A stretch of 64,000 bases of DNA from Acidaminococcaceae bacterium (lineage in GTDB: Bacteria; Bacillota; Negativicutes; Acidaminococcales; Acidaminococcaceae). A program made the translations under genes and the position numbers. Positions 4,058 through 26,574 of this stretch are shown one piece after another. Location: NCBI GenBank assembly GCA_022484685.1, contig JAKVKY010000003.1, positions 1 through 64,000 on the forward strand, read 5' to 3'. The notes under the pieces are model-generated. The model worked only from the letters and a program-made list of their open reading frames with translations. It ran no database searches and was not told where the DNA came from. Position 1 is the stretch's first letter; the number at the start of each line of letters is the position of its first letter.

Positions 4058-4447
4058 TTACTTTACGTTAGCCTTGATGAACTCAACAACCTTAGTGGTC
4101 GGGGTACCAGGAGTGAATACTTCCTTGATACCAGCAGCCTTCAGGCCGGGGATATCAGCTTCGGGAATAACGCCGCCGCCGATAACCAGAACGTTCTTCA
4201 TGCCCTTTGCCTTCAGCAGTTCAACTACCTTCGGGAACAGGGTGTTGTGAGCGCCGGACAGTAAGCTCAGTGCTACAACGTTAACGTCGTCCTGCAGAGC
4301 TGCTTCAGCGATCTGCTCAGGAGTCAGACGAATACCAGTGTAAATTACTTCAAAGCCGGCATCGCGCAGTGCACGAGCAACGACCTTTGCGCCACGGTCA
4401 TGACCATCCAGACCCGGTTTTGCTACCAATACCTTAACATTTGCCAT
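4058..4447 (-). CDS. Methylmalonyl-CoA mutase, B12-binding small subunit
   Basis: This 129-residue Rossmann-like cobalamin-binding domain occurs as a stand-alone subunit. DGHDRG at 14-19 is the B12 signature, with His16 as the expected lower axial ligand of cobalt. SLLSG (about 61-65) and a GGG loop near residue 90 are the other conserved nucleotide-tail contacts. AGGAGG lies upstream of the ATG. In many bacteria this domain is fused to the C-terminus of the large mutase chain. Here it is encoded separately, immediately downstream of the catalytic gene, as in archaeal McmA1/McmA2 pairs. Isobutyryl-CoA mutase small subunits look alike, and the operon decides in favour of methylmalonyl-CoA. Confidence 0.92.
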
Positions 4448-4506: not shown

Positions 4507-6156
4507 TTATAATGCAGTATGAGCTTTGAATTCGCCGAATACTTTACGCATTACGCCGCAGATTTCGCCTTCGGTTGCATATGCGCGAACAGCTTCCAGG
4601 ATGAACGGAATCAGGTTGGTCTTCTCATCTTTATGGCAAGCATCTTCCAATGCGGCCAGAGTAGCCTTAACCTTAGCATTGTCGCGTTTTGCCTTAACAT
4701 CAGCAATCTTCTTAGCCTGCAGTTTGCCTACAGAACCATCTACGCGGAGCAGATTCTTCGGGGGTTCTTCTTCTTGAGTGAACTTGTTAACGCCAACGAT
4801 GATGCGTTTGCCTTGTTCAACATCCATCTGCCATTTATAAGCAGAATCCTGAATTTCTTTCTGGATGTAGCCCTTAGCAATTGCTTCAGGAGCGCCGCCC
4901 AGGTCATCAATCTTCTTAATGTAGTCCATAGCTTCTTTCTCGATCTTGTTGGTCAGAGCTTCTACATAGTAGGAACCGCCCAGAGGATCGATGGTGTCAG
5001 CCAGGCCGGACTCGTAAGCTACGATCTGTTGAGTACGCAGAGCGATGGTTACGGATTCAGTGGTCGGCAGAGCCAGAGCTTCATCCTTGGAGTTGGTGTG
5101 CAGGGACTGAGTGCCACCCATTACAGCTGCTGCAACCTGCAGAGCAACACGAACGATGTTGTTGTTAGGTTGTTGAGCGGTCAGCATAGAACCAGCGGTC
5201 TGAGTGTGGAAACGCAGCATCATGGATTTAGCTTTCTTTGCATGGAAACGATCCTTCATGATGCGAGCCCAGATACGACGGCTAGCACGATACTTGGCAA
5301 CTTCTTCCAATACGTTGTTATGAGCATTCCAGAAGAAGGACAGACGGCCTGCAAAGGCATCAATGTCCATACCAGCCTTCAGAGCTGCTTCTACGTAAGC
5401 AATACCATCAGCGATGGTGAATGCAATTTCCTGAGCAGCGGTGGAGCCGGCTTCACGAATGTGGTAACCGGAAATGGAAATGGTGTTCCACAGCGGTACG
5501 TTCTTGGAGCAATATTCGAAAATGTTGGTGATTAATCTCATAGAAGGTTTCGGCGGGAAAATGTACGTGCCACGAGCGCTGTATTCCTTCAGAATATCGT
5601 TCTGAATGGTACCACGGAGCTTAGCAGCAGGAACGCCTTGCTTCTCAGCAACTGCGATGTACATGCAGAGCAGTACAGATGCAGGAGCGTTAATCGTCAT
5701 GGAGGTGGAAACCTTGCTCAGGTCGATTTGGTTGAACAGAATTTCCATATCAGCCAGGGAGTCAATTGCTACGCCTACTTTACCAACTTCGCCTTCAGCC
5801 ATCGGATCGGTGGAATCATAACCAATCTGAGTGGGCAGGTCGAATGCGCAGGACAAGCCGCTGCCGCCGTTAGCTAACAGGTAACGATAACGTTTGTTGG
5901 ACTCTTCGGCAGTAGAGAAACCAGCGTACATACGCATGGTCCAGAAACGGCCACGATACATAGTGGGTTGAACGCCACGGGTGAAGGGGAATTCACCAGG
6001 GAATCCCAGATCCTTCTCGTAGTCAAAGCCTTCGATGTCCAGCGGGGTGTACAGTCTGTTAGGCTCGAGGTTAGGACGTTCAGGGAACTTAGCGCATTTT
6101 GCGTCAGCTTCATCCATGTACCTCTTAAATTCGGTCTTTAAAGTGTCATTTGCCAT
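4507..6156 (-). CDS. Methylmalonyl-CoA mutase, catalytic large subunit
   Basis: This TIM-barrel subunit (549 residues) carries out the adenosylcobalamin-dependent rearrangement of succinyl-CoA and (R)-methylmalonyl-CoA. The substrate-channel signature QPTMYRG...[14 protein letters not shown] is near residues 64-86. The Tyr in MYAGFS fits methylmalonyl-CoA rather than isobutyryl-CoA mutases, although I cannot prove specificity by eye. It lacks the C-terminal B12 domain, which is the next gene downstream. ATG at 6154-6156 is preferred to a TTG two codons earlier because AGGAGG is 8 nt from this ATG. Confidence 0.93.
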
Positions 6157-6410
6157 TCTCAAATCCTCCTTAAAAATATAATTTTTTCACAAACCGGTTT
6201 GGACAAACAAGTTTGTGGTGAGAGTACCGTCAGAGACGGATATATGGCTAAGCCACAATGGCTTCGTCAACTAATTTATCAGCTGCAGACAAGGCGCTGC
6301 AAACTGTTTAAACATGAGACGTGGCAGACCGGATTACCCGGTCTGCTACATCTATAGTTTAGTACTTTTTCACAAATTTTTCAAGCTATTTGTGAAGAGA
6401 GTGTGAAAAC
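6157..6410 (-). other. Structured 254-bp spacer between CoA-transferase and mutase genes
   Basis: No gene is seen here. The spacer holds several inverted repeats: CACAAAC/GTTTGTG (6188-6194 with 6211-6217), a 9-bp stem GCAGACCGG/CCGGTCTGC (6324-6332 with 6338-6346) and TTCACAAAT/ATTTGTGAA (6369-6377 with 6388-6396). None has a T-run typical of an intrinsic terminator on the minus strand, so they are more likely mRNA stability or processing elements within a continuous transcript. Confidence 0.5.
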
Positions 6411-22373: not shown

Positions 22374-22625
22374 AAAATAAAAAATCCTGTTACAGTTTAC
22401 TGTAACAGGACGCTGTGCACGCGGTACCACCTATTTTCCCGGATTAAAACCCGGACTCTCAATACGCATAACGGACGCTGCCGGAGAAACTTACTACTAC
22501 ACCTTCAGTCTCCCAACTCCCGGACTACCTTCCCAAACGCTTACCCGGATGGCTTACACCTAACCCATCCTCTCTCAGAGCAGCTTTTTGGTACTCCTCC
22601 CGTTCACAGTCATTAGCTAAAAAAA
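22374..22625 (-). promoter_or_regulatory. T-box riboswitch of valS (valine)
   Basis: The leader holds the T-box core GGTGGTACCGCG (complement at 22420-22432), which pairs with the tRNA acceptor end, and an 11-bp terminator stem (22385-22395 with 22400-22410) followed by a U-rich run. Upstream, Stem I shows GGAGGAGTACC and the GATGG...TGTAAGCC segment. After a GAA turn (22530-22532) the likely specifier is GUA (complement at 22526-22528), a valine codon; an overlapping GUC is also a valine codon. Uncharged tRNA-Val should stabilise the antiterminator and switch valS on. Confidence 0.9.
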
Positions 22626-25175: not shown

Positions 25176-26081
25176 ATGGATATGGATATCGCCGACAAAA
25201 GAGAGCACGAAGCTGTCCGAGTCTCGCTCTATGGCGTCATTAGCAATATCATCCTGGCCGCTCTCAAGTGCGGTGCCGGTGTCTTAGGCCAGTCCTCCGC
25301 CTTAATTTCGGACGGCATCCATTCCGCATCGGATGTCTTCGCCAATTTTATCGTCATTGCCGGTATCAAAGTTTCCAGCCGGGCTGAAGATGCGGGTCAT
25401 CCTTATGGACATGAGCGCCTGGAATGTGTAGCTTCTATTGTTTTAGCCGTTGTCCTCATTCTGACCGGTCTCGCCATCGGTTACGAAGGCCTGCATAAAA
25501 TCCTGCACGAACCGGAAACCATCGCCGTGCCTTCCCTGTTACCGTTAATCGTGGCCGCCATCTCCGTCCTGGTCAAGGAAATAATGTTCTGGTACTGCCG
25601 GTCGGTAGCCCTGCGTATTAATTCTGACGCGGTCATGGCCGATGCCTGGCATCACCGCAGTGATAGTCTTTCTTCCATCGGTGGTTTCATCGGTGTCCTT
25701 GGAGCCAGGATGGGGTATCCGGTCCTTGATCCCCTGGCCAGTATCGTAATCTGCCTGTTAATTATTTATTCGGCTTACGAAATCTTCAAAAGCGCTGTTG
25801 ATAAAATGGTAGATCACGGTTGTGATGAAGCTACGACCACCAAGATGAAAACTATCATCACCAGTATCGCCGGCGTCGAACATTTAGACCGGCTGCAGAC
25901 CCGTATCTTTGGTAATCGTATCTTTGTAGACGTAGAAGTCAGCGTGGCTGATGATTTAACCGTAGTAGAAGCACACCGTATCGCCGAAAATATCCATGTA
26001 GCTATGGAAAAAGATTTTGGTCTGGTCAAACATTGCATGGTCCATATTAATCCTTTAAGCGAAGTCAACCACGATTTTTAA
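25176..26081 (+). CDS. Cation diffusion facilitator family metal efflux protein
   Basis: This 301-residue inner-membrane antiporter of the CDF family has about six hydrophobic helices and a cytoplasmic C-terminal domain (about 210-295). The transport-site motifs are SDGIHSASD (TM2) and DAWHHRSDS (TM5), with the Asp/His pairs that bind divalent metal; HPYGHERLE lies between TM2 and TM3. The pattern is closest to the Fe/Zn-CDF and MamB-like subgroup. The ion could be Zn2+, Fe2+, Co2+ or Mn2+; sharing an intergenic region with feoAB hints at iron balance. SD AAAGGAAG precedes the ATG. Confidence 0.9.
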   Translation: MDMDIADKREHEAVRVSLYGVISNIILAALKCGAGVLGQSSALISDGIHSASDVFANFIVIAGIKVSSRAEDAGHPYGHERLECVASIVLAVVLILTGLAIGYEGLHKILHEPETIAVPSLLPLIVAAISVLVKEIMFWYCRSVALRINSDAVMADAWHHRSDSLSSIGGFIGVLGARMGYPVLDPLASIVICLLIIYSAYEIFKSAVDKMVDHGCDEATTTKMKTIITSIAGVEHLDRLQTRIFGNRIFVDVEVSVADDLTVVEAHRIAENIHVAMEKDFGLVKHCMVHINPLSEVNHDF

Positions 26082-26137: not shown

Positions 26138-26176
26138 AATAACCCCGTAACGATGTCCGGTCGCTACGGGGTTATT
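26138..26176 (+). terminator. Terminator of the cation efflux gene
   Basis: A 12-bp perfect stem (26138-26149 with 26165-26176) is followed by CGTTTTC. It lies 57 nt past the stop codon and, having A-rich sequence on its left, may also stop minus-strand transcripts. Confidence 0.8.
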
Positions 26177-26315
26177 CGTTTTCTACTCAAGATCGCGCTG
26201 CCGCTTTTCTAGCAGCCAGACTCGGGAAAAAATAAAAGGAGAAGAATGGAAAAGGAGAATATCAGAAGGGTTTGCGAATGACAAATCATCTTTATATTTC
26301 GACCTGCAAGAACAG

Positions 26316-26348
26316 AAAACCGTTTCTGCACATGACAGAAACGGTTTT
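26316..26348 (-). terminator. Terminator-like hairpin downstream of the cobalamin riboswitch
   Basis: A 13-bp perfect inverted repeat (26316-26328 with 26336-26348, 7-nt loop) has A4 at one end and T4 at the other. On the minus strand it ends TTTTCTGTTCTTG. It could be the expression platform of the riboswitch at 26439-26523, and may work in both directions. Confidence 0.65.
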
Positions 26349-26438
26349 GATATCAGGCAAGTCCACCCTTCCACTCTCACCTGGAAAGATTTCGTTGATA
26401 ACATCATTCCTGTCACTCGCAGGTCAAGCTTGATGCTT

Positions 26439-26523
26439 ATACAGATTCGGCCTGCCGGCTCCAGTTTTTGCTGTTACGGCGACGGGATCGCAACGGACTT
26501 ACACCGTTTTACCCTCTCTGTAT
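26439..26523 (-). promoter_or_regulatory. Cobalamin riboswitch (short, adenosylcobalamin-variant-like)
   Basis: On the minus strand a closing stem AUACAGA/UCUGUAU (26517-26523 with 26439-26445) encloses the conserved cobalamin core. This has GAGGGUAAAA, then CGGUGUAAGUCCG, then GCGAUCCCGUCGCCGUAA, and a B12-box-like AGCCGGCAGGCCGAA. The compact size and missing large peripheral arm fit the short class. It has its own consensus promoter and a terminator-like hairpin about 90 nt downstream. No recognisable gene follows on this strand before the convergent cation efflux gene, so its target is unknown. Confidence 0.8.
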
Positions 26524-26545
26524 GAAATATTGTTTTTACAAGTTA

Positions 26546-26574
26546 ATTATACTTAGTACTAATAAGATTGTCAA
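26546..26574 (-). promoter_or_regulatory. Consensus promoter of the riboswitch transcript
   Basis: Perfect TTGACA (26569-26574), a 17-nt spacer and perfect TATAAT (26546-26551) on the minus strand, starting 16 nt after the end of engB. Expected start is near 26539, about 15 nt before the riboswitch. Confidence 0.85.

Follow-up and report, generated by a model that had tools for sequence, protein, structure and literature searches.

The minus strand of the window (the whole stretch of 64,000 nucleotides of Acidaminococcaceae DNA analysed here) contains a stand-alone RNA unit headed by a cobalamin aptamer. We propose, with a probability of about 0.77, that this unit is a gene for a trans-acting, base-pairing sRNA which is controlled by a cobalamin riboswitch and represses methylmalonyl-CoA mutase when B12 is low. 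Four computed results carry this reading, namely the aptamer, a conserved long form of the RNA, its complementarity to the mutase mRNA, and the co-occurrence of the sRNA with the target leader.

A cobalamin aptamer in a geneless transcription unit

The promoter is an exact TTGACA-17-TATAAT at 26574-26546 (minus strand, as for all window features below except the convergent efflux gene). It agrees with the sigma-70 consensus at 12 of 12 positions, as the earlier note on this DNA had read it, and is aligned and kept in all sRNA loci. Transcription would be expected to start at about 26539. The 5' leader AACAATATTTCATACAG at 26518-26534 is complementary to an anti-leader located 3' of terminator 1. 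Terminator 1 (26316-26348) is the terminator-like hairpin of the earlier note, counted here as 14 pairs and followed by TTTTCTGTT; its position is kept across loci, and it is the predicted 3' end of a short form of about 225 nt. The same note had described a unit of about 220 nt. Its hairpin at 26316 stands, but sequence conservation among aligned relatives extends past this point as far as another, stronger terminator, terminator 2 (26176-26132). It bears the 7-nt loop CCGGACA (26154-26160), and the full RNA, judged by this conservation, would end there at about 410 nt. On the sRNA strand, no gene is found from the unit up to position 26081, where the convergent CDF efflux gene ends, in line with the description of an orphan unit. 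Terminator 2 stops about 50 bp short of the end of that gene. Elsewhere in the window, a T-box leader (22403-22616, 129 bits) precedes a valyl-tRNA synthetase-like gene.

The cobalamin aptamer is real. It spans 26408-26523 according to the Rfam match and covariation, and comprises P3, P4, P5, P6, the B12 box, an AAGC/GCUU hairpin and P13. Rfam Cobalamin (RF00174) matches 26510-26408 with 28.9 bits (E 1.5e-5), just below its gathering score of 31.5, whereas several homologues in relatives exceed it with 31.6-38.6 bits. Relatives also reach up to 56.6 bits against the AdoCbl family RF01482 (gathering 50) at full length, two homologues being full-length matches. The B12-box part, GAGCCGGCAGGCC, lies upstream of the end of Rfam's partial match. 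The P13 hairpin CCUG-CGAGUGA-CAGG at 26423-26409 has a stem that is invariant in 17 of 17 aligned sequences, and its loop L13 (CGAGnGA), judged by sequence, is able to kiss L5 (UCCCG). In this alignment of 17 sequences, 95.9% of the base-pair cells of the aptamer hold standard pairs, and both-sided changes occur at 18 pairs. The covariation score is 0.396 compared with 0.204 in shuffles, a value of 0.396 being reached by none of 500 shuffles, and it falls to 0.117 or less when the structure is slid by 1-3 columns. The aptamer of the short cobalamin riboswitch recognized in the earlier note is confirmed; the window's own copy scores below the Rfam threshold, and several homologues score above it. 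We infer that the aptamer binds cobalamin and controls termination. The only cobalamin RNA found in the draft genome to which the window belongs (81.6% complete) is the one described here.

Behind the aptamer lie the elements that could act on a target. Hairpin HP2 (26367-26387) exposes the loop GGTGAGAGT at 26373-26381, the putative seed A for the mutase leader. This loop carries GUGAGA in 34 of 34 loci and has a predicted unpaired probability of 0.84-0.89. The anti-leader GCAGGTCGAAATAT (26294-26307) would pair with the 5' leader. A motif resembling GCAGGnCGAAATATT is present in 18 of 18 sequences of the first alignment, and the complementarity between 5' leader and anti-leader amounts to 7-15 nt, perfect or with G-U pairs, in the sRNA loci scored. 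Next come the anti-start tract TGTCATTCGCAAACCCTTCTG (26263-26283), which is predicted to pair with the mutase start codon region, and the anti-Shine-Dalgarno tract (26224-26261), which is CU-rich in the listed loci and has an unpaired probability of 0.84. The hairpin GGCTGCTAGAAAAGCGGCAGC at 26197-26217 shows the loop AGGGGU in several relatives. The loop of terminator 2 is the putative seed B; its unpaired probability is 1.00, and a C-N-GGAC loop is conserved. The HP2 loop, the GGAC loop and the CU tract are thus all predicted to be open. The anti-leader, both tracts and the GGAC hairpin belong to the long form only.

Conservation of the unit and its relatives in the family

Of 61 related genomes, 18 yielded homologues in a nucleotide search; they all belong to the same family, and the similarity extends beyond the aptamer. 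The aligned homologues have in common the promoter, the leader CAAATCAATATTTCG, the aptamer, the P13 hairpin CCUG-CGAGnGA-CAGG, HP2 with the loop GUGAGAG, and terminator 1; on its 3' side follow the anti-leader GCAGGnCGAAATATT, further hairpins, the CU-rich tract and terminator 2. Intact stand-alone units were counted at 34 loci, with 2 more in genus g17, and no coding gene lies between the aptamer and terminator 2 in the 34 loci. A covariance model of the RNA (R1) gave one match of 132-173 bits per genome in 36 of 59 family genomes, while the next matches in the family reached at most 102 bits. In 300 genomes of the class, scores outside the family stayed at or below 80.6 bits. The R1 matches of 83-102 bits in genus g2 were discarded, as those inspected are ordinary cis riboswitches before genes. 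The genomes compared are mostly metagenome-assembled; carriers include Phascolarctobacterium faecium DSM 14760, which is a cultured strain, Phascolarctobacterium sp. ET69 and Succiniclasticum ruminis DSM 9236.

The neighbours of the unit vary, being CDF efflux, RidA, AzlD-like or chromate transporter genes (the last three were named by reading their sequences, not by family search). An intact B12-transport gene within the unit of relatives was not encountered; the units are geneless in the 34 loci. These comparisons show the whole unit to be conserved as a self-contained RNA in the family that includes Phascolarctobacterium and Succiniclasticum, irrespective of its neighbours. In P. faecium, the CDF efflux gene converging on the sRNA is preceded by a NiCo riboswitch (L016, 164-254, 74.5 bits); the window contains no NiCo riboswitch at the gathering threshold.

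Two genomes of genus g17 (G016 and G032) have no recognisable aptamer, and their terminator 1 is degraded. Their sRNA loci (L158 in G016:C14 and L159 in G032:C40, around 1480-1900) keep the promoter, the leader, the HP2 loop, the anti-leader (15 pairs with the leader), the GGAC hairpin, the CU-rich tract and terminator 2. As the pairing elements persist without the aptamer, the output half is conserved without its sensor, and the g17 sRNA seems to have outlived its riboswitch. B12 riboswitch RNAs of other architecture occur in genera g4 (L120), g5 (L190), g8 (L114, L116) and g10 (L118). They bear GAGAG-like and GGAC hairpin loops behind B12 aptamers in a changed order, and the g5 RNA additionally contains the 19-pair anti-start tract described below. 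G007 (g8) contains L115 as well as L114, a single genome with perhaps two RNAs of this kind.

Complementarity to the methylmalonyl-CoA mutase leader

The mutase leader was examined because the mutase is the B12 enzyme present in the window. The large subunit gene, the predicted target, lies at 4507-6156 (TIGR00641, 797.6 bits) and is followed in the operon by an ORF for the B12-binding small subunit at 4058-4447 (PF02310 match at 4097-4435, 86.5 bits). The 5' leader of the mRNA with its ribosome-binding site (6154-6271) is conserved, as described by a second covariance model, R2. Two hairpins come first; they are followed by a CUCUCAC stretch, by a third hairpin whose loop contains GUCC, and by AAGGAGGAUUUGAGAAUG. 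In 35 of 59 family genomes R2 matches strongly at a single place each, and it gives no convincing match elsewhere in the class. The match outside the family (in G059) was set aside, as it is a mutase ribosome site lacking CUCUCAC; conservation of the ribosome-site sequence as such extends to a mutase that does not belong to the family. Among the genome contigs searched, the leader sequence pattern is limited to Phascolarctobacterium, Succiniclasticum, Acidaminococcaceae and related unclassified MAG records with higher-taxon labels.

The presence of the sRNA and that of the leader are associated (30/5/2/12, Fisher p 5e-6), a figure that is indicative only, as the table is hand-made and the genomes share ancestry. 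Genus g13 is without the mutase leader; in G012, the only g13 genome searched for the B12-binding family, the small subunit of the mutase was not seen. Mutase leaders with CUCUCACC are present in G005 (L138, G005:C34) and G031 (L185, G031:C198), two genomes that yielded no sRNA to match, also when their DNA was searched with that of g8. The genome of the window holds a second methylmalonyl-CoA mutase copy (L106, G000:C3, 85.5-88.4 kb) without the conserved leader; this copy would escape the sRNA.

Three contacts between the two RNAs can be drawn. In contact A, the HP2 loop GGUGAGAGU finds its perfect complement in the mutase 5' UTR, ACUCUCACC, so that the conserved loop GUGAGAG(U) faces the CUCUCAC of the leader. 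The site in the window, ACTCTCACC, lies at 6217-6225. This sequence occurs at 2 places in the 64 kb, compared with 0.22 expected: the mutase leader and, as complement, the sRNA itself. Across 13 representatives, 8-10 of 11 positions are paired. When 361 upstream regions of five genomes were scanned for complements of HP2, only mutase leaders reached 9 perfect nucleotides, the next best having 7-8; the P. faecium leader also has 9 but lies outside the automatic gene list. A variant base in the G008 leader cuts the match to 6. Contact B joins the sRNA loop NNGGACN to the loop NGUCCNN of the leader hairpin at 6188-6217 (TGTCCA in the window), with 4-7 of 7 positions paired wherever the hairpin exists; genus g2 lacks the GGAC hairpin.

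Contact C concerns the ribosome site, TTAAGGAGGATTTGAGAATG at 6154-6173, where the tract 3' of the anti-leader would pair with the start codon and the Shine-Dalgarno sequence in antiparallel order. It is very clear in G004, with 19 contiguous pairs including G-U, and in G007, with 11 Watson-Crick pairs, neither being equalled in 1000 shuffles (0/1000 each); in g2, g10 and g11 it is fair. For 12 genera taken jointly, each represented by one hand-chosen genome, p is about 2e-5. The duplex in the window has an energy of -20.1 kcal/mol, which 12 of 300 shuffles match, and its longest run is weak when taken alone (p 0.25). By duplex energy the mutase ranks no better than among the top 10 of 52 start sites in the window's genome, several others binding at least as well, and this energy was dropped as a specificity test because it does not discriminate. 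As the mutase leader varies little, clean compensatory changes are few. Loop B of g8 was rejected as such a case because the leader loop of g8 does not differ from that of other genera, and the anti-start site of g17 is not a clean one, since g18 has the change in the sRNA but not the one in the leader. With contact C weak by itself in the window and no single energy decisive, the argument for the target is built on all contacts jointly and on conservation. Taken together, the sRNA has conserved complementarity to the translation start region of the mutase, although the ribosome-site contact alone is weak in its own genome. The hunch in the earlier note that the mutase makes B12 central here has gained substance, as the mutase is now the predicted target.

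Proposed regulation and alternative explanations

The arrangement suggests the following course of events. The strong promoter would drive constant synthesis of the sRNA. With B12 bound, transcription would stop at terminator 1 and leave the short RNA, by analogy with other terminator-ended cobalamin switches. When B12 is lacking, the polymerase would read through to terminator 2 and yield the long form, which would fold back by a long-range helix of 7-15 pairs between leader and anti-leader. This form could then make its three contacts on the mutase mRNA, through the HP2 loop, the GGAC loop, and the anti-start and CU-rich tracts. Lying over the ribosome site, it would block ribosome entry, so that the succinate-to-propionate enzyme would not be made without its cofactor; the mutase would thus probably be made only when B12 is present. 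Of the options in the earlier note, a B12-controlled small RNA is therefore the one retained, now sharpened to a long form beyond terminator 1 with a specific mRNA target.

The sRNA might instead regulate the mutase with another sign or in another form, either because the B12-terminated short RNA is the active one, as in SreA, or because pairing opens the leader and activates translation. The HP2 seed is present in the short form as well as the long one, and site A and the start site are about half paired in the predicted leader fold, so that pairing could remodel it. We regard this as unlikely, though the least unlikely of the alternatives, as the anti-start, anti-Shine-Dalgarno, GGAC and anti-leader elements are found in the long form only and would lie over the ribosome site itself, and the aptamer-less species keep these long-form elements. 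A different output is known from EutX of Enterococcus faecalis and Rli55 of Listeria, in which an AdoCbl aptamer precedes a terminator, B12 yields a short form and its absence a non-coding RNA of about 450 nt, with the purpose that a B12 enzyme is made only with its cofactor (PMC5821096, PMC8079631). The sRNA of the window resembles them in having a B12 aptamer, a terminator and a longer non-coding form, and to this extent the comparison with ethanolamine riboswitch sRNAs in the earlier note holds. EutX and Rli55, however, sequester a protein by an ANTAR dual hairpin and serve eut genes, whereas the long form here complements the mutase mRNA. The dual hairpin with A1/G4 hexaloops as defined in PMC3369931 was searched for in the sRNA long forms and not found, and EutB was not found in 14 genomes, so the sRNA is not a member of this group. 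An ANTAR response regulator does exist in 11 of the 14 family genomes tested (none of the 14 with EutB). All ten genomes tested that have a typical sRNA contain it, and three of the four lacking such an sRNA do not, although this co-occurrence follows phylogeny. In the genome of the window, the regulator and a HisKA_2-type kinase form an EutVW-like two-component pair adjoining groESL (L097, G000:C5, about 76.9-80.0 kb). A single hairpin with the hexaloop AGGGGU, with A1 and G4, is seen in several genera, but no such hexaloop occurs in g1, g7 and most of g14. Sequestration of the regulator by the long form was accordingly rejected as quite improbable.

Antisense action or transcriptional interference against the CDF efflux gene, another option of the earlier note, draws on the convergent arrangement in the window and several relatives. 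It is very improbable, as the long form ends before the gene does and has no antisense overlap of the AspocR type with it, and in other genera the unit is kept beside RidA, AzlD-like or chromate-transporter genes. Under the last option, the unit would be the remnant of a cis riboswitch that has lost its B12 gene, which would explain why no gene follows on the strand. Such a relic is extremely improbable, given a geneless unit intact in 36 genomes, strong covariation, and conservation beyond terminator 1.

The repressing sRNA that we favour has partial counterparts among known systems. In Listeria, the B12 riboswitch Rli39 ends a repressing non-coding RNA, AspocR, which probably acts by pairing (PMC8079631). 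AspocR is a 1.4 kb antisense RNA of its own neighbour pocR, whereas the predicted target of the present sRNA lies 20 kb away in the window and would be met by short, separate pairing sites. Coupling the synthesis of an enzyme to the presence of its cofactor is an established principle in EutX/Rli55 and AspocR, which achieve it by other means (PMC5821096, PMC8079631). The nearest known system for pairing in trans is SreA; the Listeria SAM riboswitch RNAs SreA and SreB pair in trans with the prfA 5' UTR (PMC8079631). There it is the terminated fragment of an operon's cis riboswitch that acts, whereas the unit described here has no operon and its read-through form holds most contacts. In Veillonella parvula, of another Negativicutes genus, a cobalamin riboswitch is located on the mutA mutase mRNA itself (PMC9600662), whereas here the aptamer sits on a separate RNA. 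In the literature searched, we found no cobalamin riboswitch with a base-pairing trans sRNA as its output. It is fairly likely, in our view, that this family has a B12 riboswitch acting wholly in trans, which gates a dedicated three-contact sRNA fitting a single conserved mRNA leader, the one belonging to the main energy-yielding B12 enzyme, with the order of contacts rearranged in some genera and the sensor discarded in two species.

Phascolarctobacterium and Succiniclasticum live by converting succinate to propionate, and this step needs the B12-dependent methylmalonyl-CoA mutase. If the proposed regulation is true, the sRNA would explain how the succinate-to-propionate pathway is coupled to cofactor supply in the gut and the rumen.
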